A stretch of 64,000 bases of DNA, from the NCBI GenBank assembly GCA_025558075.1, contig JAHLKF010000021.1, positions 248,001 through 312,000 on the forward strand, given 5' to 3'. The stretch comes from Gaertneriomyces semiglobifer. Taxonomy: Eukaryota; Chytridiomycota; Chytridiomycetes; Spizellomycetales; Spizellomycetaceae. Position numbers and translations under genes: made by a program. This document shows positions 1,492 through 58,331 of this stretch, one piece after another (positions within the stretch are counted from its first letter, which is position 1; each line of letters starts with the position of its first letter). The notes below the pieces were generated by a model. That model did not search any database, was not told where the DNA came from, and saw nothing but the letters and a program-made list of their open reading frames with translations.

Positions 1492-4002
1492 AATATCACC
1501 GAGCCGAAGCAGTTAGTGACTTCAGCATATGCGCACCAGTTATATCAATCACAAGCCGGCTCTGCTATTGACATAAGTGACGTAGTCAACGGACGCAAGC
1601 ATGTAAAAGTCAACCATGATGATACTCTTGTAGTAGATGAAACCAATCGCCTCGGTGTCGATGTGTCGAATATTGTGGACAGCACTTCCGTCAAGGCGAT
1701 GAATGGCAAGTTGAGTGTGGATCCTTATCTACCGGGAGACGGTATTACAATCGCCGACAATGTGGTGTCCTCTACTTTGACATATGGAGGCTCTCTTAGA
1801 CGAGAAGGCGACCAAGTCATTGGCAAGACTGATGTTTCGGCAAGTAGCAACATCACTGTTGTCCAAACAAATCCTTTCAGTTACGAAGTGTCCGTGCTGA
1901 ATCCTCAGAGTCAGATCGACAACCTGGAGGACAAGGTGGATGATTTGAACGAAAAAACGGATCAGAACAAAGTGGAGACGGACAACAAACTGAATGACTT
2001 GGAGACTGAGGATGTTCGATTAGATGATAGGATAGATGGAGTGGAGTCACGTGTCCAACAGCAAGAAAACAAGACCGATCTTCTCTCTAACGACATCACC
2101 ACTAATCGTTCCAACATAACAGCACTTGACAACGCAAAAAACCAGATCCAGGGCGACCTCATTTCTTTGGCTGGAGACGTAACTGGGTTGACTGGAGTCG
2201 TAGATACAGTTAATACCGTAGCGACCGGGGTTCAAATTGCCCAGCAAGTCATGAGCGGAAATCTGACATCTCTTCAAGGCGTGGTCACTGGAATAGCAGG
2301 AGAAGTTACGGGATTATCATCAACAGTCGCTGCTATCCAAGCCATGCCGGTGGTGAGAGGAGTTATTGGTATCGGTGTAATCGCGGCTCAAGATCCCATT
2401 ACTGGCGTGGTAACGATTACTGCGAGCAGTCCTCTGATGGCGAAAAGCAAAGGCACTGCTCCTGTAGATCCAATTCTAAAGTCCGATGATTCTATATTAA
2501 AAGACAATGGGGGTCTCACCGAGACCGGCGAAACTGCTCCTCCTGTCGATCCTCCAATATTGCCTCCAAATCCGCCTCCACCACCCCCAGGTGGTGATAC
2601 CTTGAGGACTACAGGAGGGACAGACGGTAACAATTATCCTTGTCTTGATCCCATTCCACCTATTTTTGGTGGTAACGATGTTCGTACGAATGAGCAGACC
2701 TGGTTTAGAGACTCTTGGGGCAAGCGATGGCAATTGCCTACAATCGAAGTTGATGGTGTCCCGAAAACAGTTCTCGAATACGATGAGAACAATTTGCCTA
2801 TCGTTCCTCACGGACACATAGATATCGTGCATCGCAAAACAGAGGTGGATGACTTTTCTAGTGTTCTCTTGACACACGACCGGCACCTGCAGAGCGGCTA
2901 CCAGGGAGTTCGCCTTGAGTCGATGTTGCAAGTACCTAACCTTGCCATGCTCTTCGAAAGTTGGGATTTTTTCATGCAACCCTACGTAGAGTCATGTAAC
3001 TACATCGGTGTCGGACAAGGACTTGTCAAAACTGGTAATACATTGTCTTTAAGTGAAGATCTCTCGACGTTTGCAAAGACAAGCAGCATCAAAGCATTGG
3101 GATTCAAAGATACCTTGTCCTATTCAGAGTTAGCAGGACGCCCAACTGATCTCACAACAAAGACCTATGTTGACGGATTGTCCTATCTCACCGCTGGTAC
3201 TGGCATCACGAAAAGTGGAAGTTCGCTCTCTGTAAATTCAAGTGCGATCACTTCTGTAGGGACTTTGACTGGTTTAACCTCATCAGGTATAGTCACCATT
3301 TCCAATGCAACGGCGGCTATAAACAGCACAACAGGCGCATTGCGTGTTACAGGTGGTGCTAGTTTCGGTGGGAATCTTTTTGCCGTCGGAAACATTACTG
3401 CTGCTAGTCCAACTGCCACAGGACACCTTTGTACTAAATCGTATGTTGACGGATTGTCTTATATTGCCGTGGGAACAGGTTTGGTAAAATCAGGGAACAC
3501 AATCTCTCTGGGATCCGACTTGTCGACCTTTGCGTTGAAATCGGATTTGCAGTCCTTTGCTTATAAAAGTTCCCTGAGTTATGCAGAGGTGACCGGGAAA
3601 CCGGACTTGTCAATTTATGAAACTAAAACCACACTGAAAGGGCTAGCGTACAAGGACAAGGTTGATTATGCGACCGATGTAATTAATGCGCCGGTATCTG
3701 TAACTTATGGAAGCGGTTTGCTGTTCAGTGAAAACGCTCTTTCCTTGAATCCCGCACTGAATGTTGATTCTTTGGCGACTGTAGGAGGAATTTCAGTTGG
3801 AGGAAATCTGTCTGCAGTAGGAAACGTTTCCATAGGAGGTACCTTTACAGCAACGAAGAACGCCAACACTGCGTTCGCCCATGTGTTGAACAACCAGCGC
3901 TGGTCGAGGAGTATACGGAGGCGTGAGTGCCGGAACTCTACAAAATTATGCTGGGTCGTTACGGCTACTAACCAGGACGGAAACTGGGGGTGTTGTTATT
4001 GA
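1492..4002 (+). pseudogene. Viral fibre-like gene, middle part (coiled coil, proline hinge, tail-fibre-like repeats)
   Basis: This is the same frame as the upstream part. In order it shows more shaft-like repeats; a heptad-rich coiled coil (about 1915-2160, blocks such as LEDKVDDLNEKTDQ); a Gly/Val-rich stretch; a proline hinge (PPILPPNPPPPPPGG near 2550-2600); then repeats around TK(S/T)YVDGLSY with Gly/Ser-rich beta blocks (GGNLFAVGNI, GGNLSAVGNVSIGG) like those of phage and large-virus tail fibres. The true frame is lost near 3895-3910: the downstream coding signal continues in frame 2, while frame 1 ends in an arginine-rich tail at 4000-4002. A one-base indel explains this. Confidence 0.6.
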
Positions 4003-6406
4003 TGATGTGGGTGATGTGGATATTTCACAACGTCTCTCTATTGGGATGGGCAACGAATTTTTACCATTTCCTCCTGTCGATTTGTGGGCTAACACAGGTG
4101 TGGTTTCTGCCCAACCATACGGGAATGGTACCTACGTTGTGAGTAGCAGTAGTAAATTCAACAACTCTACCCAATATGATGCATGGCATGCGTTTACAGA
4201 TAATAGTGCATTATATCCTTGGTATCCCCTGACAGGAACATACAATGTTGATTCTCCATTTAACTATGTGGGGTCTATATCGACAACAGTTGATGGAGTT
4301 GAAGTTCTAGGTGAATGGATTCAATTACAACTGCCTTTACCGATCTTACTACAGTCCTTTGACATTGCAGTTCTGAATGTGACAACTAATTTTTACATCA
4401 AAGAGTTTGTTCTAGTGGGTTCCAATGATGATACCACTTTTACTCAGTTGATGACTTCTACATTCTCTTGGGGGGCGGCTGGAGCGCAAACATTGAACGT
4501 GCCGGTTCCAAATGTGACAAAGGGTTTCAAGACATATCGCCTCATTACTAAGTCGTTGCTAGGAAACCGGACGTATTGTCAAGTGAGTAGATTGATCTTT
4601 TATGGAAAACCGGTGTCCATGGAAATTCGGGGCGCCATTTCTGCAAAACAGATATTGACAGATGAACTAGTATGTTCGGGTGATGTGAAGATGGATGGTC
4701 TCGGTTTGCAAGATGACATCCCTACAACTTCCGTTTACCCTGACACTCCCATGACCGCCTCTACAACAGGACAATACACTGCTACTTCATCAAGTGTATA
4801 TTCGGGAACATGGACGGCTTGGAAGGTTTACAATCCTTACGCTTCAGATAACAACAATACTTGGTTTTCTGCTGCTGACGCTTATTCGACCACGGCACCC
4901 TTTTCTCATATCGGGACAGCCTCCACAACAGTGGACGGATCGGCAGTCAGTGGCGAATGGGTTCAATTGGACATGCAAACTGCTATTGCTCTGACGTCCT
5001 TCTATATCGCAGAACCAACTACAGGCGACTCTTATAATGTCAAAGACTTTATCATTGCAGGTAGTAGTGACGGTTCTTCATGGAAACAAGTAGTCTCTGG
5101 AACACTCGACTGGAGCACCGCACCAAGCAATGGTTCCATTCGTGAATTGAATGTCCCAGTAACTACTCGAGTCAGTCATAAGTCGTACAGGTTTATTACT
5201 AGATCCATTCAAGGCGAATCGGCTGGAAAGTATGCTCAGATCTATGCCCTGAAATATACGGGCGGTATTCCAAAGAAGGTTTTGAATGTTGAGAACCTGA
5301 AAGTTAACAAAATCTTTGGTGATCTGTCAATTGACAACAGTATCGATATCAAGGATGACATTGTCAGTCCATTAAGATATCCCCAAATACCCTTGACCGG
5401 TGGAACTACTCAAGGGTATATTGTGAATGCCAGCAGTAACTTGAATGGAACGTCCGCAGCCTGGAAGGCATTCACTAATTCATTGGAAATCAACGACTCT
5501 TATTGGTCTTCGTCGACATATTCAGGAGGCACGCAGAATCTGTACCAAGGCCAAGGTCAAACCACTGTAAATGGCATCAATTTCAAAGGTGAATATGTGG
5601 AACTTGAGATGCCTAACGCAATCGCTATTACAGCCTTTACATATGCTGGCCGGACACCAGAGATGCCGATGTTCCCAAAGGACTACACTATTTGCGCTTC
5701 CGATGACCGCAGCAATTGGACAGAACTTTCGAGTGGACCAATGACATACACGATGTATCAGAACTCAACTTCAGTAGATAGGTTTGTGCCCATCAAGAAC
5801 TACACTACGAAGAAGTTCAAAATCATTAGGTTCATCGTCCGTAACCTTGTTTCTTCTACATATGCCCATATTGGAAAATTGACATTTTACGGATCGACTA
5901 CCACACTAAAAAGCATAGATGCTCCATCTGCGAAAATTAACAATGTGGCTTTGACTGCTCCAGCATATGGAATGTTCCAGTTGCATTCCAGTCAAGCATT
6001 CTCTGTGAATGGTACTGCCTATCAGTTAATAACCAAATGGACACCCTCCTTTGGTATGGAAAGTGAGACAATTACTTGTTCACCGAATTCACAAGATATC
6101 GTGTTCTCCATGCCCGGTATATACAAGATTGAATTCGATCTTGATTGTCATCAATCCGCTTCTGGTGTAGTAAATTCCTACTTTGGTTTCATGGCACCTG
6201 GTAACCCTCAGTACTATGAGGATGGTTATCATGTTAGGAAAATTAGTATGATTGCCGGTCAAAGAGTCACAGGCTCATCTATATGCCGTGTGGTTGAAGC
6301 AGATACCAAGATGATACTTCGCTTCAATTCCGGATCTTCATCTGGTGCAATTACAGGTTCACCATCAAGTCGACTGATCGTCTATCGCATTGCGCCATTG
6401 GCCTAG
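3902..6406 (+). pseudogene. Viral fibre-like gene, C-terminal part: three discoidin-like repeats and a C1q/TNF-like end
   Basis: The frame-2 continuation of the fibre gene is open to TAG 6404-6406. Three repeats of about 170-190 residues each (roughly 4070-4620, 4740-5270 and 5380-5910) share W..F, a glycine turn, the signature GE(W/Y)(I/V)(Q/E)L then an alternating hydrophobic strand, a (V/I)GS(N/S)D element, and an end like Y(R/K)-(F/L)I. This layout matches F5/8 type C (discoidin) sugar- or lipid-binding domains. The last 140 residues (from about 5965) begin F-Q-L-H-S and run in short beta strands ending in L-I-V-Y, like a C1q/TNF-type trimeric knob. The domain calls are by eye. The arrangement suggests trimeric attachment with several binding modules. 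Confidence 0.6.
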
Positions 6407-7045: not shown

Positions 7046-7120
7046 AAAAAGGTTGCAAGTCCTCAACAGTCGCAGATTCCTATAGTAGGCCTTCCACTGT
7101 TGAGGACTTGCAACCTTTTT
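7046..7120. repeat. Perfect 25-bp-arm hairpin, copy 1
   Basis: Arms 7046-7070 and 7096-7120 are exact reverse complements (arm core GGTTGCAAGTCCTCAACAGT), with a 25-base loop. A near-identical hairpin lies at 7399-7471. The flanks of the two copies are related but clearly more diverged than the arms. Confidence 0.85.
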
Positions 7121-7398
7121 CAAGGTGACTAGGCGTTTACTAGGTCGTTGTTTAAGGTGACGAAAGGGTCGCTAGATGATATGGAGGAGATACACTTAGG
7201 TGTCTAGGTCTGTTAGAGGGGAAAGTATGAGTTGACTTGAAGGCCGGCAATGGAGGGGAAGACGCGAGCTAATCACATTGTCATTCCTACTCAGAATCTA
7301 AACAAGACTCCATTGATATTCGCAAGCTAATGACTCGATAACCGAGACCTAGTTGATGTTCGGATCGTTGCTGAAAATCGAACGGGATTAGACGGCAA

Positions 7399-7471
7399 AA
7401 AAGGTTGCAAGTCCTCAACAGTCACAGATTCTTATAGTAGACCCCCCACTGTTGAGGACTTGCAACCTTTT
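7399..7471. repeat. Perfect 24-bp-arm hairpin, copy 2
   Basis: Arms 7399-7422 and 7448-7471 are exact reverse complements and share the core of the hairpin at 7046-7120; the loop is 25 bases with several differences. It sits in a diverged direct duplication of roughly 350-bp period (about 7003-7155 and 7355-7505). It could be a viral transcript-end hairpin, a folded-back regulatory RNA or a transposon relic. Confidence 0.8.
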
Positions 7472-8041
7472 CAAGGTGACTAGAGGGAGCACTAGGTCTT
7501 GGTTCTAATCAACTATGTTCCACTACGTCAATATGTAGGACATGCTACAATCCTCTTCAGCGGATGAGTCCCTTAACCTTTTGCGGTCCGCATATCGATA
7601 TACCATGAACTATATCGACGATACAGAACTATCGATAGTCACTGCGTGGTGAAGTTTGACGACATTGCGCTGCAAGGTGTCTCGACAATGGAGCAGACAT
7701 TCCAAACTTGTCAAGTGTTTCGTCCCTTGACATGGAATCTAAAGGTTGCCTAATGTCCCTTAATTCAGTCAGAAACGATTGACTTAATTAGTAACCAATG
7801 GTCGTTAATTGAGTCTATTTATGAGACTTAAGTCAAATAGTCAACTTAATTAATATCTACTAATTAAGTCATTGTCACAGTCCATATATAAGTCAATTTT
7901 TTGCATGCAAAAAATTGACTTATATATGGACTGTGACAAACGGGCTGCATTGATGGTAAGTGCCATTGTCAAGTGTTGCCCGAGGGATATCCATGACACT
8001 GACACCATTGACCACCGTCATAGAGGGCAGTGGTCGCCGCC
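7472..8041. other. Gene-free stretch with GACTTAAT-type motifs leading into a palindrome
   Basis: No supported gene. From about 7779 to 7920 the motif TTGACTTA and its complement TAAGTCAA, with close variants (TTAATTGAGTC, GTCAACTTAATTAA, TAATTAAGTCA), recur at least six times on both strands, ending in the 68-bp palindrome. Confidence 0.5.
7872..7939. repeat. 68-bp perfect palindrome without spacer
   Basis: Every base from 7872 to 7905 is the complement of its mirror in 7906-7939. The centre is TTGCATGCAA and the outer ends are TTGTCACAG/CTGTGACAA. The first mismatch is at 7871/7940. There is no loop, so it could extrude as a cruciform. Confidence 0.9.
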
Positions 8042-8372
8042 ATGGAGAGAGATTACGGCCAAGAAGAGTTCGGCCAGAGCTTCTGGAAGACCTTGGATAA
8101 CAGCATCAGGGGTTCTGACGACATGAGAACCGGCCAGGAGCTCGCTGAGTGGGTGGAGCGATCTTGAAACTGCATGCAAACCGGTTAACTGACATAGAGT
8201 TCAATAGGTATTTTGACCGGATTTTCCACAACGACAAGATCAAGTTCACCCGTGCACCTATGAGTTCCGAGAAGCCCAGGGAGGACCCGGATGAACTCGA
8301 TCTTGTCGTTGACACAGAGTCTGTGGAGTTCGTTTATTCGCACAATGTGCCCCCACCCGCTGATATCATGGA
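8042..8372 (+). pseudogene. 5' part of a gene for an acidic-tailed protein, split by a retroelement array
   Basis: ATG 8042 sits in a strong Kozak context (GCCGCCATGG) and opens a natural-looking frame (MERDYGQEEFGQSFWKTLDN). That frame reaches TGA near 8162. From about 8158 the coding signal continues in frame 1 (NRYFDRIFHNDKIKFTRAP), so a one-base indel is likely; a small intron is less likely. The frame is cut at 8372 by the LTR array. The rest of the gene lies at 10266-10403, after a direct repeat of ATGGA. No family was recognised; the C-terminal part is very acidic. Confidence 0.5.
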
Positions 8373-8577
8373 TGTTGTAATAGAATCCCGGTGGCATACA
8401 CGCCATTGGGGTTACCCCGTTATCGGTAACTGCTATGTCACCACTGCCCTAAGTCACATGATCTTTTCCGTCGGGAAGCGCTTAACGCAACCGTCAGTTT
8501 AGAACTTAGAACCTTAGACTTCAGAGATAACAGAGCTTCTAAGAAGGATAGGAGCATCAGCAGGTTCCTCTGCAACA
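8373..8577 (+). repeat. LTR 1 of the mini-copia array
   Basis: 205 bp, TG...CA ends, preceded by target copy ATGGA. It differs from the other two LTRs at only a few positions. Confidence 0.9.
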
Positions 8578-8673
8578 GGTTATGAGCCCCGGCATCGACA
8601 GCTGTTACCTGCTTATGCTCTGCCCCTCAGTCTCCGGGTGGATCTGCCCGTTATTGACAGTTTCCGCCTGCAC

Positions 8674-9009
8674 CGTTGATCCCCCTGCCTGCGATTAACA
8701 ACAACTGCTATTGAACACCCTGCCTGTGTTCAACTGCTTACACTCCCGGACCGTTGATCCCCCTGCTAGCGATTAACGACGCCCGACACTTATTGATCCC
8801 CCTGCCTGCGATCAACGACAACTGCTATTGAACACCCTGCCTGTGTTCAACTGCTTACACCCCCGGACCGTTGATCCCCCTGCCTGCGATTAACGACGCC
8901 CGACACTTATTGATCCCCCTGCCTGCGATCAACGACCACTGCTTATTGAACACCCTGCCTGTGTTCAACGACAACTGACCCTTATTGCACCTTGCCTGTG
9001 TATAACTCC
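8674..9009 (+). repeat. Leader stem-loop array of the first mini-copia unit
   Basis: A row of short inverted repeats with a common loop CCTGCCT and differing stems: TTGAACAC/GTGTTCAA, TTGATC/GATCAA, GTTGATC/GATTAAC (one G-T pair), and a last imperfect one with TTAT..CAC/GTGTATAA just before the gag ATG. See findings. Confidence 0.75.
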
Positions 9010-9017
9010 TTTTTTTG

Positions 9018-9275
9018 ATGGCCCGCTCGACCCGCAGTGCCAAGGAGGAATTCTCGGCCTCCGACAACCCTCCGTCACTGTTCGCTGAACGACTGCCAAA
9101 CCTGGAATCCGACGCCGTGTGCGTCACGTACATATGCGGCCTCAAACCGTCTGTTCGTGACCGCATTCGCAATCGAGTTGCCGCTGACAAGCAGACCCTT
9201 GACGTCTTACAAGCTGTCGCCGTGGAACTGGATGCATCCGTGTACCGAAATGTCGTGTATGCACCGAGGGGGGAG
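9018..9275 (+). pseudogene. Truncated copia gag relic, unit 1
   Basis: ATG 9018 opens the same N-terminus as the full copia gag (MARSTRSAKEEFS), then jumps from AERL to the segment L-P-N-L-E-S-D, losing about 125 residues that the full elements contain. It keeps the CGLKPSVRDRIRNRVAAD block, then runs into the 3' LTR. It cannot make working capsid. Confidence 0.8.
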
Positions 9276-9480
9276 TGTTGTAATAGAATCCCGGTGGCAT
9301 ACACGCCATTGGGGTTACCCCGTTATCGGTAACTGCTATGTCAGCACTGCCCTAAGTCACATGATCTTTTCCGTCGGGAAGCGCTTAACGCAACCGTCAG
9401 TTTAGAACTTAGAACCTTAGACTTGAGAGATAACAGAGCTTATAAGAAGGATAGGAGCATCAGCAGGTTCCTCTGCAACA
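9276..9480 (+). repeat. LTR 2 (shared, central) of the mini-copia array
   Basis: 205 bp. It serves as 3' LTR of unit 1 and 5' LTR of unit 2. The primer-binding site GGTTATGAGCCCC follows directly. Confidence 0.9.
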
Positions 9481-9802
9481 GGTTATGAGCCCCGGCATCG
9501 ACAGCTGTTACCTGCTTATGCTCCGCCCCTCAGTCTCCGGGTGGATCTGCCCGTTATTGACAGTTTCCGCCTGCACCGTTGATCCCCCTGCCTGCGATTA
9601 AGAACAACTGCTATTGAACACCCTGCCTGTGTTCAACTGCTTACACTCCCGGACCGTTGATCCCCCTGCCAGCGATTAACGACGCCCGACACTTATTGAT
9701 CCCCCTGCCTGCGATCAACGACAACTGCTATTGAACACCCTGCCTGTGTTCAACGACAACTGACCCTTATTGCACCTTGCCTGTGTATAACACCTTTTTT
9801 TG

Positions 9803-10060
9803 ATGGCCCGCTCGACCCGCAGTGCCAAGGAGGAATTCTCGGCCTCCGACAACCCTCCGTCACTGTTCGCTGAACGACTGCCAAACCTGGAATCCGACGC
9901 CGTGTGCGTCACGTACATATGCGGCCTCAAACCGTCTGTTCGTGACCGCATTCGCAATCGAGTTGCCGCTGACAAGCAGACCCTTGACGTCTTACAAGCT
10001 GTCGCCCTGGAACTGGATGCATCCGTGTACCGAAATGTCGTGTATGCACCGAGGGGGGAG
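9803..10060 (+). pseudogene. Truncated copia gag relic, unit 2
   Basis: Nearly identical to the relic at 9018-9275, with the same internal deletion, so both units derive from one deleted founder. It runs into LTR 3. Confidence 0.8.
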
Positions 10061-10265
10061 TGTTGTAATAGAATCCCGGTGGCATACACGCCATTGGGGT
10101 TACCCCGTTATCGGTAACTGCTATGTCAGCACTGCCCTAAGTCACATGATCTTTTCCGTCGGGAAGCGCTTAACGCAACCGTCAGTTTAGAACTTAGAAC
10201 CTTAGACTTGAGAGATAACAGAGCTTATAAGAAGGATAAGAGCATCAGCAGGTTCCTCTGCAACA
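10061..10265 (+). repeat. LTR 3 of the mini-copia array
   Basis: 205 bp, ends CTCTGCAACA, followed by target copy ATGGA (10266-10270). Confidence 0.9.
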
Positions 10266-10403
10266 ATGGAGACCGAGACCCAAGACATCACCGAAACCAC
10301 GTCCGAGGGTACTGAGGAAGGAGAAATAGAAGAAGAAGGTACCGCAGAGCCGATGGAGGGTTGGGAGGAAGTGGAAAGCAGCGATCCTGACGAGGAACCG
10401 TGA
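10266..10403 (+). pseudogene. 3' part of the split acidic-tailed gene
   Basis: After the second ATGGA copy the frame that was cut at 8372 resumes (METETQDITETTSEG) and runs to TGA 10401-10403 through a Glu/Asp-rich tail. The in-phase resumption across the target duplication is strong evidence that the array landed in an exon. Confidence 0.6.
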
Positions 10404-10892: not shown

Positions 10893-10992
10893 TGTTGCAG
10901 AGGATCCTGCTGAGGCTCTGGTCCTTCTAATAAGCTTGTGTGTATTCAAGTCTAAGGTTCTAAGAGTACAGTTGAATGCCCGGCATAAGAGA
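10893..10992 (-). repeat. Copia 1 3' LTR, outer part
   Basis: The first 100 bp of the LTR as read on the plus strand. The rest resumes at 14243 after the hAT. 100 + 177 = 277 bp, exactly the length of the other LTR. Confidence 0.9.
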
Positions 10993-11166
10993 TAGTGCTG
11001 TCAAATGGCTTGGCTTGGCTTGGCTCTGGCTCGGGCAGTCATTTTGAGCCATGGCTGTGGCTCGGACGTCAGGAGCCAGTCGGCTCGATGGCTAAATTAA
11101 ATTGTCACGTGATTTTGACATGACTGTGCCACCGAGAAGGAAAAAAGCGCAAGCGTACGTGTGCCC

Positions 11167-11173
11167 ATATAAG
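11167..11173 (+). promoter_or_regulatory. TATA box for the plus-strand genes of the hAT
   Basis: ATATAAG lies 55 bases before ATG 11228, between the subterminal repeats and the first gene. Confidence 0.4.
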
Positions 11174-11227
11174 TGGTTACACTTTTGACACCTTTATTGT
11201 GACATTTCAGTGCGTTGCAAGCATATC

Positions 11228-11650
11228 ATGCCTCAAACTTGTAACCAGACCTCCCCTGAGGTTCAGATAGAGAAGATCGATCATTCTACCCCTATTTGTG
11301 AGCTACCTGGTGTTGCCAGAGCAATTGAGAGAGCTCAGAGGCGCTTTTTACAAACCCTTCTCAGTATTCTCCCCCCTGAGAGGAATCTTTATACATACAA
11401 AGGCTCCCCATATTATTATTTTCGTCATATTCCATACAAATACCTGCATGGTGCAGAGGTTGTTGGTCTTATCAAAACCACAGTTCGATTGACACCTGGT
11501 TCTCGTCAACAAACTCGTGTCTGGTTGGTTCCAACTGAACATTTTGAAAATGCCCCCCAAGAAGAGCACCCCCAGGAGAGGTACAGTTCAGACAACAGTG
11601 ATAGTGAGTCAGAATGGGAACAATGCGACATCGTCGACTGCGACCCCTAG
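11228..11650 (+). CDS. Hypothetical 140-residue protein with acidic tail, inside the hAT
   Basis: The first ATG after the TATA box (11228; a GTG in frame lies at 11210). The middle has blocks such as [20 protein letters not shown] and [20 protein letters not shown], and the end is a Ser/Asp/Glu-rich tail ([15 protein letters not shown]). No family was recognised. Its last 101 bases (11550-11650) overlap exon 1 of the histone gene in another frame, so either this is a true two-frame overlap or the real gene ends differently by splicing. It would lie upstream on the same transcript as the histone frame. Confidence 0.45.
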
Positions 11651-12027
11651 GAGACAATATCGTTATCGTCCTGGCACTGGTATATTATTATGAATTGATA
11701 CAATATTATTACATACTAACACATCCATTGGTAGTTGCTTTGAGGGAAATTCGTCGTTATCAAAAGAGCACTGATTTGTTATTGAGGAAGTTACCATTTG
11801 CCCAACTTGTCAAGGAAATTATGCAAGAAGAACATATCCGAAGCAAGAAACCTCCTGGCGACGCCATCATGCGCATACGTAAGGATGCAATGGTTGCATT
11901 ACAAGAGGCTTCCGAAGCATATTTGGTGCATCTATTCGAGGATACCAATCTTGCAGCTATTCATGCCAAGCGAGTGACGATTCAACCCAAGGATATGCAG
12001 CTGGTGCGAAAACTTCGTAAAGAATAG
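11550..12027 (+). CDS. Histone H3-like protein (CenH3-like), two exons, carried by a hAT transposon
   Basis: Exon 1 (11550-11679) encodes a basic tail, [12 protein letters not shown] up to [11 protein letters not shown] 55-nt intron (11680-11734; GTATAT...GGTAG with a perfect TACTAAC at 11714-11720) splits a valine codon. Exon 2 (11735-12027) continues [21 protein letters not shown], the H3 alpha-N/alpha-1 region, and ends with the alpha-2/alpha-3 signature ([32 protein letters not shown]). The spliced product is 140 residues, close to normal H3. The tail lacks the usual ARTKQTARKS start, and the loop between alpha-1 and alpha-2 is about nine residues longer than in H3. A divergent tail and longer loop 1 are typical of CenH3. 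It should pack DNA with H4; a centromere role is inference. Confidence 0.88.
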
Positions 12028-12063
12028 TGATGTAATTAAAACTAAACACATTTGCGATAAATT

Positions 12064-14001
12064 TTAAACATGATTTACGGATTTGGTATTGAATTTAATA
12101 CCATACTCCATCCAAGACTTGACACATAGAATCGATGGAACGCTTTTGTCTTTTAAAGCATTACGTTTCTTTGTAACAACATCGCCGGCTTTTGAAAAGA
12201 CTTGTTCACTGGGTACTGAAGTGGCTTGAATACTTAGGTAATCTCTTGCTATGATAGCCAACTTGGGAAAACGTCCGGAATTAACTTGCCACCATTGGAG
12301 GGGAGTTGCATTGATGTCGGCCAGCACTTCTCGAAGATATATTTCAGTTTCGGTAAGTGATCCATTTGCGTTCTCTTTGGTACGCTTGTTAAATACTTCT
12401 TCCAAGTAAGAAGCTTTGCGTTTGTTGCCATTTCTATGGAAAGATTCCTCAACATCATCAGAATCCGATTGTTGAATTTCATTCTCATATATATCTGTCG
12501 TTTGTTGCATGACGCTAGCACAAGTACCAGCACGTAACAATTCCGGAAGTTGTGACTCTTTGAAACGTGGATCCAGAATCGCACCCATAAAAGATTGAGG
12601 TGTATACAGGTGTTGAACATAATTCGACAACTTTGGTCTCATCTGAGATGCTGCTTCCTGAAACCAGAAAGGCTTTGTCGTATCGCTCGCAGCCGATGCA
12701 ACAACCTCACTCAACTCCTCGATAAGCACGATAACTGAACCCAACGTAGTATACTTTTGTCCTGAAAGTAAGGTTGTTGTAGAGTAGAATGGCTTCAGAA
12801 ATTGTAAAATAATAATAATACTGTAATATTCATCTTCTTCCAGATGATACCGTTCCAGGCCATGATCAGTTGTTGTAATCAGCTGTTCGATTGCATATCG
12901 AGTTTTGCAATAACTTTCCAGCATGAGATACACACTGTTCCATCGGGTTGAAACATCTTTCGGAATGATTCCTCCTGTACGACTAGTTTCTGCATTCATA
13001 GCTTTGCGTAATTCTTGAGTAAATTTACTAGATCGGTGGGTTGCCAGAACAAAGTCACGTATTTTACTGATTGGACCAGCAATGGCAGCCAATCCACTAT
13101 TGACGACTAGATTGAGTATGTGTGCAACACATCGTTGAATAGTCAATGGACTTTCACCCAACTGCTCACGGCTTGCATTCAATAGATTTAGTCCCCGAAT
13201 TCCGTTTTCAACATTATCAACAGTGATTCCTAGCACTTTTCTTTGAATGCCAAATTCGTTCAAGATCAAATGAAGCGTTTCTGCAATAGTTTCACCATCG
13301 TGGGGATGAGGAACATTACAAATGTCCAAGAGAATTGATTTCATTTCCCAATCATCAGATATCCAATGAGCGGTAACAGCCATAAATGGTGTCTTAGATA
13401 CAGATGTCCAGAGATCCGTCGTAAGTGAAATTTTACTCTTGATTGAAAGCAGATGAGTCTGAAGTTCCTTTTTCATATTGCTATATGCGTTGTAAAGTTT
13501 GTTCCGAATAGTGTTCCGAGTTACGACAGTTGCAGTAACATTTAGATATGTCAGAATGTTCTTGAAAGCGGTACTGTTCACAGCAGAAAACAGTTGTGAT
13601 TCTTTTACAATCCATTGAGTATTGAGGTCTTGAAGATGTTTAAGTTGATCTTGACTCATCTCTTCTGCAACTGGAGGCGCAATGTTTGGAACAAAGTTCA
13701 ATTGCGGTTGTCGACCAGTGTGAATGTTTTCTTCTAACATTTCTTGCCAATTCGGATGTTTTGTTGTTAGATGACGGCCAAGATTTGCAGACGCTGTTGA
13801 TAATTCATACGTTTTACAACACCAAATACATGTTCGATTCTTACCTATAATTAGAAATGCAAGCAATGTCTTTTGTCTGTAAGTCGATGTAAGACTCATA
13901 TTTAATCTATTGTAGTAATCGAAAATGGTTACAATTTTGGTAGTGTTTATGTCTAACTTCGCTTCACAAGCGTGTTTATTAATGTTCAAAAGTGTAACCA
14001 C
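12064..14001 (-). CDS. hAT-family transposase with BED zinc finger
   Basis: One 645-residue frame. An N-terminal BED-type finger (CIWCCKT...HLTTKHPNW) is followed by the RNase H-like core with hAT catalytic features: first Asp in LTTDLWTS, second in TVDNVENG, Glu in PSEQVFS. It ends in the hAT dimerisation region (WWQVNSGRFPKLAIIARDYL ... SEQVFSKAGDVVTKKRNAL). The length fits the family. The first methionine in frame is at 14001; a later one (MSLTSTYRQ, about 13898) may be the real start. It is convergent with the histone gene, 36 bases apart, leaving almost no room for separate terminators. Confidence 0.93.
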   Translation of the reverse strand: MVTLLNINKHACEAKLDINTTKIVTIFDYYNRLNMSLTSTYRQKTLLAFLIIGKNRTCIWCCKTYELSTASANLGRHLTTKHPNWQEMLEENIHTGRQPQLNFVPNIAPPVAEEMSQDQLKHLQDLNTQWIVKESQLFSAVNSTAFKNILTYLNVTATVVTRNTIRNKLYNAYSNMKKELQTHLLSIKSKISLTTDLWTSVSKTPFMAVTAHWISDDWEMKSILLDICNVPHPHDGETIAETLHLILNEFGIQRKVLGITVDNVENGIRGLNLLNASREQLGESPLTIQRCVAHILNLVVNSGLAAIAGPISKIRDFVLATHRSSKFTQELRKAMNAETSRTGGIIPKDVSTRWNSVYLMLESYCKTRYAIEQLITTTDHGLERYHLEEDEYYSIIIILQFLKPFYSTTTLLSGQKYTTLGSVIVLIEELSEVVASAASDTTKPFWFQEAASQMRPKLSNYVQHLYTPQSFMGAILDPRFKESQLPELLRAGTCASVMQQTTDIYENEIQQSDSDDVEESFHRNGNKRKASYLEEVFNKRTKENANGSLTETEIYLREVLADINATPLQWWQVNSGRFPKLAIIARDYLSIQATSVPSEQVFSKAGDVVTKKRNALKDKSVPSILCVKSWMEYGIKFNTKSVNHV

Positions 14002-14242
14002 ATTTTGTTGTAAATGAAGTCATTGTATAACTCGAAGAAATTTTATGGTGCAAGCCACTCACATGACACGCATCGCTTATGTCATATATGTAGCCATGGA
14101 GCCGGCTCGATGGCTGGGTTGGCTGACCATACAATTTGAGCCATGGCTCGTGGCTCGGGATTTTCAGCGAGCCATGACGTGGCTAGGGTTGGCTGAGCGG
14201 GCTGGCAAGCCGGCTCAGCCATTTGACAGCACTAATAAGAGA

Positions 14243-14479: not shown

Positions 14480-17400
14480 TCAGTGCTTATTGTCAGTGTT
14501 CGACATCTTCAGCAGCTTGTCAGCAGTGTCAGGCATTGTCAGCAACCTGTCAGACACTGTCATCAGCTTGTCAGCAGTGTCGGACGCTGTCAGCAACCTG
14601 CCAGACACTGTCATCAGCTTGTCAGCAGTGTCGGACGCTGTCAGCAACTTGTCAGAAGCGTCGGACATATGGAGACCCATGCGCGGATGCATGCTGTTCA
14701 GAGCAGGAGCGGCTAGAGCCTTGGTAAGTCCATCAGCAAGCTGATTATTGATGGATACATAGCAGAGAGCGATTTCCTGGGTCTGATGAACCTTTTCGCG
14801 GATGAAGTGATGACGGAGATCGATGTGCTTAGTGCGGTTGTGATTGACTGGGTTGTTGACAAGTTTGATGGCTGCCTGGTTGTCCTCGTATACTGTTAGA
14901 GCACCATATGTGCCGGGTTCAGTGCCGGGAAGGATGGACTTGTAGGTGTTATTTCGTGGAAAGTGCTCAAGGAGCGCGATCATCAGTCGACGGAGCCATA
15001 CTGCCTCTTTGGTGGCCTCAGCTAATGCAATGTATTCCGCTTCTGCTGTAGATTGTGCTGTGCAGTTCTGGAGCTTAGATGCCCACGAAATAGCGCCTCC
15101 GTTCAGCAAGAAGAGGTACACCGACGTCGAACGTCGATTTTCAGCATTTGCCGCGAAATCAGCGTCGGAGTAACCATGTAGGGAGGATACTCCCCCGTCT
15201 CTAGGGCCATACAAGAGCTTGAGGTTGCGAGTGCCTTTTACATAGCGGAGGTCACAGCCAGCAGCACTCAGATGCTGTTCAGTTGGTTTCGACAAGAAGC
15301 GGGACAGTTTGGAGATTGCGAATGCGAGATCGGGCTGTGTAGCGATGGTAACATACATCAAACTGCCGATTATTGACTGATAAATTTTTTGATCAGCCAG
15401 GACGTCGTCGTCGGTGGCAGCGACAAGCGATAAGCTGGGCGACAGTGGAACAGTGACAGATGTGGCATCGGCAAGGCCATAGCGAAGGAGCATGTCATCA
15501 ATGTATTTGCCTTGGTTCAGTGTCAGTGTGTCAGCAGTGCGTGTGACTTCAATGCCCAGGATGTACGAAATCTCCCCCATGTCCTCCATCGCGAATCGCC
15601 GGGCAAGACCATCCTTAATGGACTGTATGCGGGCCGTCGTGGAGCAGATGGTGAGGTCATCAACGTACAGGGCGATGATGTCAGGTGTGCCGCCGGCAGC
15701 TGGACGAATGTACAGCGTGGTGTCGAGAACTGTGGGTTGAAAACCAACGGACTTCAGATAAGTGTCAAGCGTTTGATTCCATAAGCGGGGAGACTGTTTT
15801 AAACCATAGATCGAACGTAGGAGCTTAACGTACGACCCATCAGGGAGTTGCATATGAATGTCGGTGTCGATTACAGCGTTCAGGAATGCCGTGAGGACAT
15901 CCATTTGGTGGACGACAAGGCCGAAGAGCTGAGAGAGAGCCAATAGCAGGCGGAGCTTGCTGAACTTGACGACCGGGGCATAGGTTTCATTGAAATCGAG
16001 ACCCGGGCGCTGGGTAAACCCACGGGCAGCAAGGCGGGCCTTATACTTCTTGATGGACCCGTCCGGGTGATGTTTAATCTTGAAAACCCATTTAGAATCG
16101 ATGGCATAAGCGTCGGACGGCAAGGCGTCGACGGGCATCCACGTCTGATTGTCAAGTAAGGACTGGAGCTCTTTATCGATGGCCTGCTGCCAGGCATGAC
16201 GATCAGGTGAGCGCAACGCCTGCTTATAAGTGACGGGTTCCCGGGCACGGGGGCCGTGGAGAGCGGATGCTACTAATGCCTCGACTTTAGGTGCAATTTC
16301 CGGGGATTGGTGCTTACGAGCGAAATATTCATCAACAACGGGCAAGCCGTGTAAGTTGAACGCATCGTTCCATTCAGGTTCAGAATACCCGACTTGCTTA
16401 ACAAAATATTGATGCTCCCCCGTCGGTGCGATCCGTTCATCAACAATGTACTCGACTTCAAAAACTTCATCATCGGGAGCGTCGGGAGCGGGATCGACAT
16501 AGTTGGTTTCATCGAACGTGACGTCGCGGGACCGATGAATGCGCTGTGTCAGGGGATCGTAGAAACGGTAACCCGTGGAGTCAGTGTACCCGATCAGTTT
16601 CATGCGACGGGCCCGGGGTTCGAACTTTTTATTGGGACGGCGTTCGACGGGGATATGAACATAAGCGTCGGACCACAAGACCCGCAGGTTCGCCACGTCC
16701 GCGGGAGAACCGTGCCATTTTTCATATGGAGTTGCATTTCCGATGGCGCGGGACGGGGTGCGCTGACGGAGGTAGTTGACAGCAACGACGATTTCCCCCC
16801 ACAAGTGCTGAGGTATGTGACTCGACAGCATGACCGCCCGGGTTTGTGTCATTAACGTCTGATTATAACGCTCGGCAATGTCGTTTTGTGCGGGAGAGTA
16901 CGCGTGCGTGGGACAAACCCGGGTGCCGTGCTGCCGGAGATCGCCGACAAGGGCATGGCTCAGATATTTGCCACCGTTGTCGCATCGCAGTTCAAGGGTT
17001 TTGCATCCACGGAGGTTTTCAGTGTGTTGGCGAAAAGCGTGGAATTCAGCGGGGATGTCGTGTTTATTTTGGATGACGACGACATGTGCGTATCGAGTAA
17101 GTTCGTCGATGAACGTGACAAGGTACGGGCAGTCATCGAGGGTGTCATGCTCGACTGACTGCACGTCGTTGTGGATGCGACCAAGGACACGGGTTGCAGG
17201 TTGGGGGTTGTCATGATTGAATGGAGAGCGTCGGGACTTAGTGACACGACACCCAACGCAGGTCGCAAGGGTGCCGGGCGCGGAAATACCGTATGCGCGA
17301 AGCGCTAGTTGGAGATTAGCAGTGCTCGGATGACCGAAACGTAGGTGCCAGAGCTTAAGAGTAACAGAGTCAGCGGAACTAGGGGCAGGATCAGCGATAA

Positions 17401-18937
17401 CATGTGAAGTAGGCGGTATATCTTGTGAATAAACAGTGTCAGCAGCCGCAATCGCAGGTGTCGACGGTGTCGACTCGGTCGAATTGGTCGATTCTGGTGG
17501 ATTTGTCGGAAAGTGCTGTGCCACCGTGTGGAGCGCGTGAAGTTGCTGTGCCGTCGGAGGCGCAGTGACGGTAACCGGGGGCGCAGTCACGGACGGGGGG
17601 TCACGGGGGGCGACACGCGACGTACGATGCGCAATACGTGCGGACTTGCGGACATGGGTGGTAAAGGCCTCATATTCAGCCGGGGAGGCAGTGGTATACC
17701 TAGCAATAAAATAAAGTTTATTGTGACGTATGACATCAGCTACACGAGCACCCGACTTGCGATGAGTAATCCATCCGGCACTAAGATCAGCCGAGAAGTC
17801 TAAGGCATAACGAGACTGGGCCAATGATGCGAAGGAGAGCAGGTTCCGCGGACATTCGGGAGCATAGAGCACGTCAGTAAGCTTAAGTAAACCGTGACCT
17901 GTGTTGATGATTAAGGTTCCCTTGCCGTAAGCAGCGCACGTGCCGATGCCGGAGATTTGTCGGGCCGAGGGAAAAGCTTGAAATTCCGTCAGGAGAAAGC
18001 GGTCGCGAATGAGGCTATGCGTGGCGCCCGAGTCGAGAGCAATGGAGTGCGGCGCGTCACGGTCAGTCGATAACACAAGGAAGGCCTCGGGATCGGAGTC
18101 AGTGTCATCCGCGGGATCGGGCGAATCAGAGAGGTCGGCGTCGTCATGTTCAAGTTCAGCGGCATGTGCGGCCGGGCCGGACTGAGCGCGTTTCTTGGCG
18201 GCAATGACAAGGGGACAGTCACAAATGTAGTGGGTACCTTGGTTGCAGACGTCACAGGGACGGGTCGCCGGCGTGGGGCGACGGCGACGGTGCGTGGCGG
18301 CGGCGGCAGCGGCAAAGGCTTCAGGAGTGCCAGGAGTGCGAGGTTTCGTGTACACAGAAGCATCCAAGTCCAGGGCAGCAATTTGTAAGGCGTCAAGGGT
18401 CTGGGTGTCAGCGGCAACTCGATTGCGAATGCGGTCACGAACCGAGGGTTTGAGACCGCAAATGTAAGTAAGGGAGACGTCGTCAGAGTCCATGTTCGGC
18501 AGGGTTAAGCGAATTTTCTCGAAAGCAGAGTTGTATTCGCCGACGGTACCGGTTTGAGAGAGGTTTCGCGGGGCAAGGCGTTGGGAGTCCAGATATGCAG
18601 CAGGAATGAAGCGTTGATGGAGCGCACGACGGAGAGGAGTCCACTGAGTAATAGAATCACCTTTTCCAGCGGAGAGGTTCCAGTTTTCGAGCCATGTAAG
18701 AGCATAATCACGAAGGTTGCAGGTGGCGACTAAGAAAAGGTCCTCCTCAGTGAGATCGGGGCGTAAGGTGTGAATCATGTTGATGGAGCGGATGAAGGTC
18801 AACAGCCGGGGGGTGGCATCCTGGGGATTGCCGTCGAACGGGGTGATTTTCTTAAGCGTGTCTGTTAACAGTCGTTCAGCGAACGGTGACGGAGGGTTGT
18901 CGGGGGCCGAGAATTCCTCCTTGGCACTGCGGGTCAA
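14480..18937 (-). CDS. Ty1/copia gag-pol polyprotein 1, with a chromodomain-like insert
   Basis: A 1485-residue frame in copia order. Gag with a zinc knuckle CDVCNQGTHYICDC (CX2CX4HX4C); protease ALDSGATHSLI (near 18045); integrase with LWHLRFGHPS...CVGCRV, then Asp in IHNDVQS, Asp in LRCDNGG and Glu in IAERYNQ; a chromodomain-like module (about 16320-16470, EVEYIVDERIAPTGEHQYFV then GYSEPEWN); reverse transcriptase with ALYVDDLTICS; RNase H with YSDADFA and EDNQAAIKL; and a tail of repeats around SDTADKLLT. The gag ATG present in copia 2 is out of frame here (one base lost at about 18937-18945), so the frame now opens with TTG. The protein may therefore not be made, although the rest is open. 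Confidence 0.93.
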   Translation of the reverse strand: MTRSAKEEFSAPDNPPSPFAERLLTDTLKKITPFDGNPQDATPRLLTFIRSINMIHTLRPDLTEEDLFLVATCNLRDYALTWLENWNLSAGKGDSITQWTPLRRALHQRFIPAAYLDSQRLAPRNLSQTGTVGEYNSAFEKIRLTLPNMDSDDVSLTYICGLKPSVRDRIRNRVAADTQTLDALQIAALDLDASVYTKPRTPGTPEAFAAAAAATHRRRRPTPATRPCDVCNQGTHYICDCPLVIAAKKRAQSGPAAHAAELEHDDADLSDSPDPADDTDSDPEAFLVLSTDRDAPHSIALDSGATHSLIRDRFLLTEFQAFPSARQISGIGTCAAYGKGTLIINTGHGLLKLTDVLYAPECPRNLLSFASLAQSRYALDFSADLSAGWITHRKSGARVADVIRHNKLYFIARYTTASPAEYEAFTTHVRKSARIAHRTSRVAPRDPPSVTAPPVTVTAPPTAQQLHALHTVAQHFPTNPPESTNSTESTPSTPAIAAADTVYSQDIPPTSHVIADPAPSSADSVTLKLWHLRFGHPSTANLQLALRAYGISAPGTLATCVGCRVTKSRRSPFNHDNPQPATRVLGRIHNDVQSVEHDTLDDCPYLVTFIDELTRYAHVVVIQNKHDIPAEFHAFRQHTENLRGCKTLELRCDNGGKYLSHALVGDLRQHGTRVCPTHAYSPAQNDIAERYNQTLMTQTRAVMLSSHIPQHLWGEIVVAVNYLRQRTPSRAIGNATPYEKWHGSPADVANLRVLWSDAYVHIPVERRPNKKFEPRARRMKLIGYTDSTGYRFYDPLTQRIHRSRDVTFDETNYVDPAPDAPDDEVFEVEYIVDERIAPTGEHQYFVKQVGYSEPEWNDAFNLHGLPVVDEYFARKHQSPEIAPKVEALVASALHGPRAREPVTYKQALRSPDRHAWQQAIDKELQSLLDNQTWMPVDALPSDAYAIDSKWVFKIKHHPDGSIKKYKARLAARGFTQRPGLDFNETYAPVVKFSKLRLLLALSQLFGLVVHQMDVLTAFLNAVIDTDIHMQLPDGSYVKLLRSIYGLKQSPRLWNQTLDTYLKSVGFQPTVLDTTLYIRPAAGGTPDIIALYVDDLTICSTTARIQSIKDGLARRFAMEDMGEISYILGIEVTRTADTLTLNQGKYIDDMLLRYGLADATSVTVPLSPSLSLVAATDDDVLADQKIYQSIIGSLMYVTIATQPDLAFAISKLSRFLSKPTEQHLSAAGCDLRYVKGTRNLKLLYGPRDGGVSSLHGYSDADFAANAENRRSTSVYLFLLNGGAISWASKLQNCTAQSTAEAEYIALAEATKEAVWLRRLMIALLEHFPRNNTYKSILPGTEPGTYGALTVYEDNQAAIKLVNNPVNHNRTKHIDLRHHFIREKVHQTQEIALCYVSINNQLADGLTKALAAPALNSMHPRMGLHMSDASDKLLTASDTADKLMTVSGRLLTASDTADKLMTVSDRLLTMPDTADKLLKMSNTDNKH
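16320..16470 (-). other. Chromodomain-like module within copia pol
   Basis: The segment between integrase and reverse transcriptase reads VFEVEYIVDERIAPTGEHQY, FVKQVGYSEPEWN and DEYF. It aligns with the chromodomain pattern (aromatic-x-VE-x-I-x-D-x-R ... G-x2-x-Y-x-VK-x2-GY ... EW). The cage positions would be F, Q and Y here; copia 2 has F, Y and Y. Confidence 0.65.
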
Positions 18938-57994: not shown

Positions 57995-58271
57995 TGTTGC
58001 AGAGGATCCTGCTGAGGCTCTGGTCCTTCTAATAAGCTTATGTGTATTCAAGTCTAAGGTTCTAAGAGTACAGTTGAATGCCCGGCATAAGAGAACCACC
58101 CGACGGAAAAGATCACGTGTCAGGTGTTAGGGCACCCAGTCACATGGGTCACGTGCTCATGGGCACATGACGCACGGGTGTGTGCTGATATGGATAAGAA
58201 CCCATGTCATAGCACGCGCCCTGGTTAGGGTATCCCTATGACGTGTATGTCACCGGGACCCCCTTACAACA
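57995..58271 (-). repeat. Copia 3 3' LTR
   Basis: 277 bp, nearly identical to the copia 2 LTR. Confidence 0.95.
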
Positions 58272-58331
58272 CTCCCCCCTCGGTGCATGCACGACATTTC
58301 CTGCAAACTGCCCGACACCTTCAGCAACTGT

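Follow-up and report, generated by a model that had tools for sequence, protein, structure and literature searches.

We describe here a 3,242-bp hAT transposon from the chytrid Gaertneriomyces semiglobifer that, with near certainty, carries a transposase gene together with a divergent histone H3 frame, which we call H3L. The element lies at positions 10993-14234 of the window, by which we mean the whole 64,000-nucleotide stretch of contig C21 that was analysed (positions 248001-312000), and the genome that was searched comprises 20.86 Mb in 66 contigs. Several traits of the hAT superfamily are present: perfect 18-bp terminal inverted repeats (TIRs), TAGTGCTGTCAAATGGCT at the left end (10993..11010, plus strand) and its exact match at the right end (14217..14234, minus strand); 8-bp target site duplications, ATAAGAGA on both sides (10985..10992 and 14235..14242, no strand assigned); and an empty site against which the flanks can be compared. 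When the two flanks are joined they match an unbroken LTR at window 57995-58294 with 97.3% identity over 300 nt, and they also match the LTRs at window 34719, 19236 and 39842 (96.1-98.2%); as these LTRs run uninterrupted across the junction, the ends of the element are exact. Subterminal repeats on the plus strand at 11040-11056 and 11078-11093 recur near the right end at 14132-14148 and 14100-14115. A first-pass annotation, made from the letters of the window, had already pointed to the perfect ends, the 8-bp duplication and the H3-type frame adjoining the transposase, and each of these readings holds, with the frame now placed inside an exactly bounded element.

Other features of the window can be noted in passing. 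An 827-aa frame with F5/8 type C (discoidin) domains, whose first start codon is GTG, occupies 3923-6406, and a copia-type frame of 1485 aa occupies 14480-18937. By eye, tandem LTR-like blocks with repeated 'CCCTGCCTG' units can be seen at 8360-10270, as can small palindromic repeats at 7050-7480, where four copies of 'ttgcaagtcctcaacagt', two per sense, form two inverted pairs in a stretch of some 430 bases.

H3L is predicted to be a two-exon gene on the plus strand. Exon 1 (11550..11679) opens with an ATG at 11550 and encodes a tail unlike that of H3 followed by RYRPGT, exon 2 (11735..12027) runs from the end of alpha-N to the stop codon and includes the enlarged loop 1, and the predicted 55-nt intron between them (11680..11734) reads GTATAT...TACTAAC...TAG, with the branch site TACTAAC at 11714. 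The joined frame of 140 codons plus stop agrees in all these respects with the first-pass model, and its match to the Pfam Histone family (E=4.8e-38) is strong enough to reject a chance frame or a chance match. An intron-like motif of the form GTA...TACTAAC...YAG is not rare in itself (one in the window, against 1.8 expected from 20 shuffles), and the predicted intron gains its support from the fact that splicing at 11680/11734 restores the sequence RYRPGT-VALREI exactly as in H3. A public gene model, P0014 ('histone H3.3 [Gaertneriomyces semiglobifer]', 107 aa), matches the same locus and drops the alpha-N segment because it uses a different donor, at 11581. The structure modelled from this 107-aa form has histone-like helices at a pLDDT of 62.7, too weak to carry weight as proof; the nearest solved structures to this low-confidence model are nucleosomal H3, with a TM score of about 0.43, and a sequence search of solved structures with H3L also placed H3 entries first (among the best 60 of 176).

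On the opposite strand, the transposase is an open frame (12064..13899, minus strand, ATG at 13899) with a hAT dimerisation domain (PF05699, 81.7 bits against a cut-off of 21.4, E=3.4e-23); a zf-BED match of 19.2 bits (cut-off 20.6) and a hAT-like RNase-H region of 25.5 bits (cut-off 27) both fall below the Pfam cut-offs. No DUF659 match was found in the element at E up to 1. Close relatives of the transposase were not found either, the best 120 of 312 matches being at most 37% identical and including no chytrid among those that are named, and a search of viral contigs returned no relative of H3L or of the transposase. The genes for H3L and the transposase run towards each other to stop codons 36 bp apart (window 12027-12064), an arrangement in which overlapping transcripts could give double-stranded RNA. 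Before each gene, in the same sense, stands a copy of the 16-nt motif GTGGTTACACTTTTGA (11173..11188, plus strand, and 13986..14001, minus strand), the first of which adjoins a TATAAG (11168..11173, plus strand) that may be the TATA box of the H3L/ORF1 unit. The motif occurs at three sites in the genome with up to one mismatch, all of them within the two copies of this hAT. Counting palindromes, a repeat of at least 16 nt turns up by chance in 18 of 300 shuffles. The same promoter-proximal region would also serve ORF1 (11228..11650, plus strand), a frame of 140 aa with an acidic C-terminal end that overlaps H3L exon 1 in another frame and is a candidate gene. ORF1 may or may not be real: it has no homologue at E up to 10 (5 candidates) and no usable structure model (pLDDT 39.9), and as frames of at least 140 aa appear in 20 of 1000 shuffles, it may have arisen by chance.

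The first-pass annotation regarded H3L as CenH3-like on account of its loop 1 and tail, and both observations are sound in themselves: the alignment gives a loop 1 nine residues longer than that of host H3, and the canonical ARTKQTARKS tail with its acceptor lysines is absent. If H3L did descend from a centromeric H3 and act at centromeres, or steer insertion towards them, one would point to the extended loop 1 and to D59, L62, A68 and H102, residues within alpha-1 and alpha-2 among them, that H3L shares with most fungal CenH3 (CENP-A/Cse4) rows. A longer loop 1 is, however, shared by rows outside CenH3, among them P0044, and the loop-1 tryptophan (RWQ) and hydrophobic C-terminal end of most fungal CenH3 rows are absent from H3L in the alignments. 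The C-terminus of CenH3 has a role in CENP-C binding. The H3L core is identical to host H3 at 70 of 93 positions; ahead of loop 1 it is equally close to both host proteins (30/34 for CenH3, 29/34 for H3), whereas the segment after loop 1 matches host H3 at 38 of 43 positions and host CenH3 at 30.

When the broad H3 profile is the reference, H3L also lies apart from centromeric histones. Subtracting the broad H3 score from the CenH3 score gives H3L a margin of -3.1 bits, or -8.7 bits with loop 1 masked. In leave-one-out scoring, 19 of 19 fungal CenH3 rows lie at +19.4 to +46.7 and nine fungal H3 rows at -14.3 to -28.4. The broad H3 profile was built from 41 rows, of which these nine were tested; neither set of profile rows includes P0063 or P0118, which have the loop-1 RWQ yet fall among H3. 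When the nine-row fungal canonical H3 profile is the only H3 reference, H3L scores 8.0 bits higher with CenH3 (155.4 versus 147.4). In the H3/CenH3 phylogeny suggested in the first pass, the best tree puts H3L among the H3 rows, on a long branch (1.46) with bootstraps that are not settled, and both placements survive the AU test (p 0.31 for CenH3, 0.447 for fungal H3). The tree rows were taken from the 120 matches listed (single-domain, at most 200 aa, core of 85-115 residues), making 76 rows with four of our own and 63 after removal of identical cores. Both copies of the element sit in LTRs, which may or may not be centromeric. Tree, AU test, half-by-half identity and profiles together leave a CenH3 origin unsupported and, short of full exclusion, very improbable. 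As its margin falls between those of the CenH3 and H3 controls, and as the tree and AU test leave both placements standing, H3L is, judged by its sequence, a histone that fits neither group.

The host genome contains several other H3-like loci. Two closely similar open CenH3 genes (L001, C2:140560; L002, C6:365647) have identical cores and different tails. Distinct from these and from host H3 is an open, divergent H3-like frame at C11:555411-555671 (L044; Pfam Histone 2.5e-14), which keeps the loop-1 RWQ and has no normal alpha-3. At C9:357072-357338 (L008/L042) an H3-like frame, decayed and interrupted by two TAG codons, lies about 1 kb from a decayed zinc-ribbon fragment, which we take to resemble the zinc ribbon of TnpB/Fanzor, its PF07282 match being only 0.0078 and below the cut-off.

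Recent capture of H3L from host H3 or CenH3 is ruled out by the 70/93 identity to H3, a third-codon identity of 0.30 and different intron positions, the intron of host H3 lying elsewhere and both host CenH3 genes reading as intron-less. A more general form of capture has to be weighed, in which an H3-type gene was acquired by accident through transduplication, is of no use to the hAT, and is intact because the copy is young or because its source was already divergent. Gene capture by DNA transposons is common, and we regard a functionless passenger of this kind as a possibility falling a little below the probable, about as likely as the anti-silencing role that we propose below. An open reading frame is weak evidence of selection here, as an H3 frame that has drifted this far stays free of stops in 36% of neutral simulations, before indels. 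The pattern of replacements is harder to reconcile with mere carriage. Over 93 aligned core codons H3L and host H3 differ at 23, of which 7 fall in the 59 conserved columns, these being defined from 28 fungal H3/CenH3 rows made up of hits to H3L itself and two host genes; neutral simulations of the same 23 differences placed a mean of 14.4 and a minimum of 8 in those columns, and 0 of 5000 were as low as 7. With the residues of the second copy substituted at two positions, 6 of 21 differences fall in conserved columns and 1 of 5000 neutral runs is as low. In the first form of the test, with 31 rows from the hit list, 4 of 23 did so against a neutral mean of 14.6, and the host CenH3 control gave 2 of 27 (host CenH3 being itself among the 28 rows). 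Because replacement changes avoid conserved histone columns, the H3L frame has diverged as a histone. Part of this constraint may nevertheless be older than the capture. No similar gene was seen in the host genome or among the 120 matches listed, which is itself awkward for an accidental passenger, and with no close source found the divergence may have taken place inside the transposon or before capture. At H3 position 69 all of the 31 comparison rows have R, and the complete copy has Q.

Copy number, by contrast with the column test, sits well with a passenger. When the left third of the element was used as a DNA query, the one complete copy was found together with one further copy on contig C6, a 1,650-bp 5' fragment of 98.1% identity (32 differences) in which the H3L frame is also present. 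In this fragment ORF1 is interrupted by two stops, most of the transposase is missing, and the donor and branch site of the predicted H3L intron are gone, while the alternative donor at 11581 is unchanged. Between the two copies H3L shows 4 replacement changes and 1 silent one, about the neutral ratio and no sign of selection; ORF1 shows 5 replacements, of which 2 are stops, and 2 silent changes, and the part of the transposase that can be compared shows 11 replacements and 0 silent changes. A dN/dS comparison between copies had been suggested in the first pass and can be made in this form, as counts of changes, but as an estimate of selection it is uninformative because the second copy is broken. 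In the suggested genome search for the 18-bp ends, the end occurs with up to two mismatches at 10 sites (1 for the reversed control), 3 of them in the two copies; beside the other 7, in 3-kb loci, there is only element end sequence or nothing, with one 77-bp pair. The H3L frame is thus present in the only other copy found, but full-length copies number one; apart from it there are the 5' fragment and ends that stand alone or are relics. The genome search returned two hAT dimerisation domains, both of this family, and amplification to the tens or hundreds of copies that is a trait of the published H3-carrying hATs is absent here, with two copies found, one of them partial. Relics without genes that share the end sequence occur at C28:866-1185 (L022) and on C9 (L018, 77 bp), so the 2% divergence between the two copies may understate how old the family is in this genome.

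Our own proposal, which we offer tentatively and rate somewhat below probable, is that H3L is incorporated into nucleosomes and acts as an anti-silencing factor of the hAT element. The silencing marks H3K9 and H3K27 are written on tail lysines. The tail of host H3 has eight lysines and two ARKS motifs, whereas that of H3L has lysines at positions 3 and 4 only (H3-style numbering), no ARKS and no equivalent of K9 or K27; because such a tail cannot carry an H3K9 or H3K27 mark, the chromatin of the element would be hard to silence. On this proposal H3L would be transcribed, spliced and translated, probably together with the transposase through the shared 16-nt promoter-side motif; it would pair with H4 and enter nucleosomes, whether at the element or widely; and those nucleosomes would resist silencing by HP1 and RNAi. 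That the host has silencing machinery to evade is suggested by an HP1 with chromo and chromo-shadow domains and by Piwi-domain matches at five places, some of them in stretches with internal stops that are perhaps introns. There are 17 SET-domain matches in the genome; the Pre-SET model returned no match to an H3K9 methylase, which is uninformative, given that domains may be interrupted by introns and that the controls did not match either. Against a working H3L stand the single complete copy, the near-neutral differences between copies, the broken second copy, the Q at position 69 and the H3 copies reported as dead in the Mycosphaerellaceae described below.

Instead of giving protection from silencing, H3L nucleosomes might mark sites for the transposase and so aid insertion or excision. 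The compact arrangement of convergent H3L and transposase genes with a common promoter-side motif would suit such a targeting factor, as would the insertion of both copies in LTRs of a single retrotransposon family. Two insertions are too few to establish a preference, however, the LTRs of that family are frequent within the window, and we know of no contact between a hAT transposase and a histone; we consider this role quite improbable and retain anti-silencing as the preferred function.

The first-pass annotation knew of no described case of a histone variant carried by a DNA transposon, but hATs carrying H3 have been published from two groups of fungi that infect plants (Manning et al., 2013, PMC3538342; Dhillon et al., 2019, PMC6710886). 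In Pyrenophora tritici-repentis, a 5.6-kb hAT is described that encodes, besides its transposase and a central frame without known function, an H3L. This H3L is present in 26 nearly identical copies, counting a 2.3-kb form, has ESTs and tail insertions, and is assigned by the authors neither to H3 nor to CenH3 (Manning et al., 2013, PMC3538342). Compared by these descriptions, the two elements are alike in having a transposase and an H3-like frame between TIRs, and in an H3L that fits neither H3 nor CenH3; the extra frame of unknown function may have its counterpart here in the candidate gene ORF1. They differ in size (5.6/2.3 kb versus 3.24 kb) and in number (26 H3L versus one complete and one broken copy), and where the Pyrenophora protein has tail insertions and ESTs, the one here has a loop-1 insertion, a chytrid host and a predicted gene.

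The second report concerns H3-carrying hATs in six Mycosphaerellaceae of Pseudocercospora, Cercospora and Sphaerulina, where the element is about 9.5 kb in P. fijiensis, and where a DUF659 domain and an intron-less H3 retrocopy are described, with hundreds of H3-like copies reported as RIP-inactivated (Dhillon et al., 2019, PMC6710886). The 8-bp target duplication, the ends of 18 to 20 bp and the H3-like cargo are common to both, but a RIP-dead, intron-less H3 and DUF659 there correspond here to an open frame, a predicted intron and no DUF659 match. Inactivation of the captured H3, reported for the six species (PMC6710886), speaks for a passenger, whereas the recurrence of the same cargo in hATs of distant fungi speaks against one, and that recurrence in two other fungal lineages, with the ESTs of Pyrenophora H3L, counts for an anti-silencing function. 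The broader proposition, that fungal hATs have repeatedly turned a captured H3 into an unmarkable chromatin weapon, co-expressed with the transposase and packing the element beyond the reach of host silencing, we think rather unlikely.

For the mechanism proposed, a likeness can be seen in the VANC proteins of Arabidopsis VANDAL transposons, which, in the portions of the two papers available, counter silencing and bind DNA sequence-specifically (PMC5735166, PMC10398659). The likeness, with no claim of membership, is that in each case a transposon's own second protein would be set against silencing, although VANC proteins act through sequence-specific DNA binding whereas H3L would act as a histone. 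The available part of a further paper mentions no histone cargo (PMC8616336), and searches of the literature on histones or H3 and transposons and on Gaertneriomyces, with most subscription papers outside their coverage, found no H3-carrying hAT in a chytrid among the reports listed. Both earlier reports come from Dothideomycetes and leave the function of the H3 open. H3 cargo in a hAT is thus already known, and what is new here is the host phylum, the compact element with a predicted intron, and the nine-residue insertion in loop 1. As far as literature searches show, this is the third case of an H3-carrying hAT, in another phylum and with an open frame and predicted intron; an additional occurrence in a chytrid, combined with constraint of the histone type and with no close source seen in the host, makes pure accident a less comfortable explanation, and the 3.2-kb element offers a small system in which transposon histone variants can be tested against silencing.
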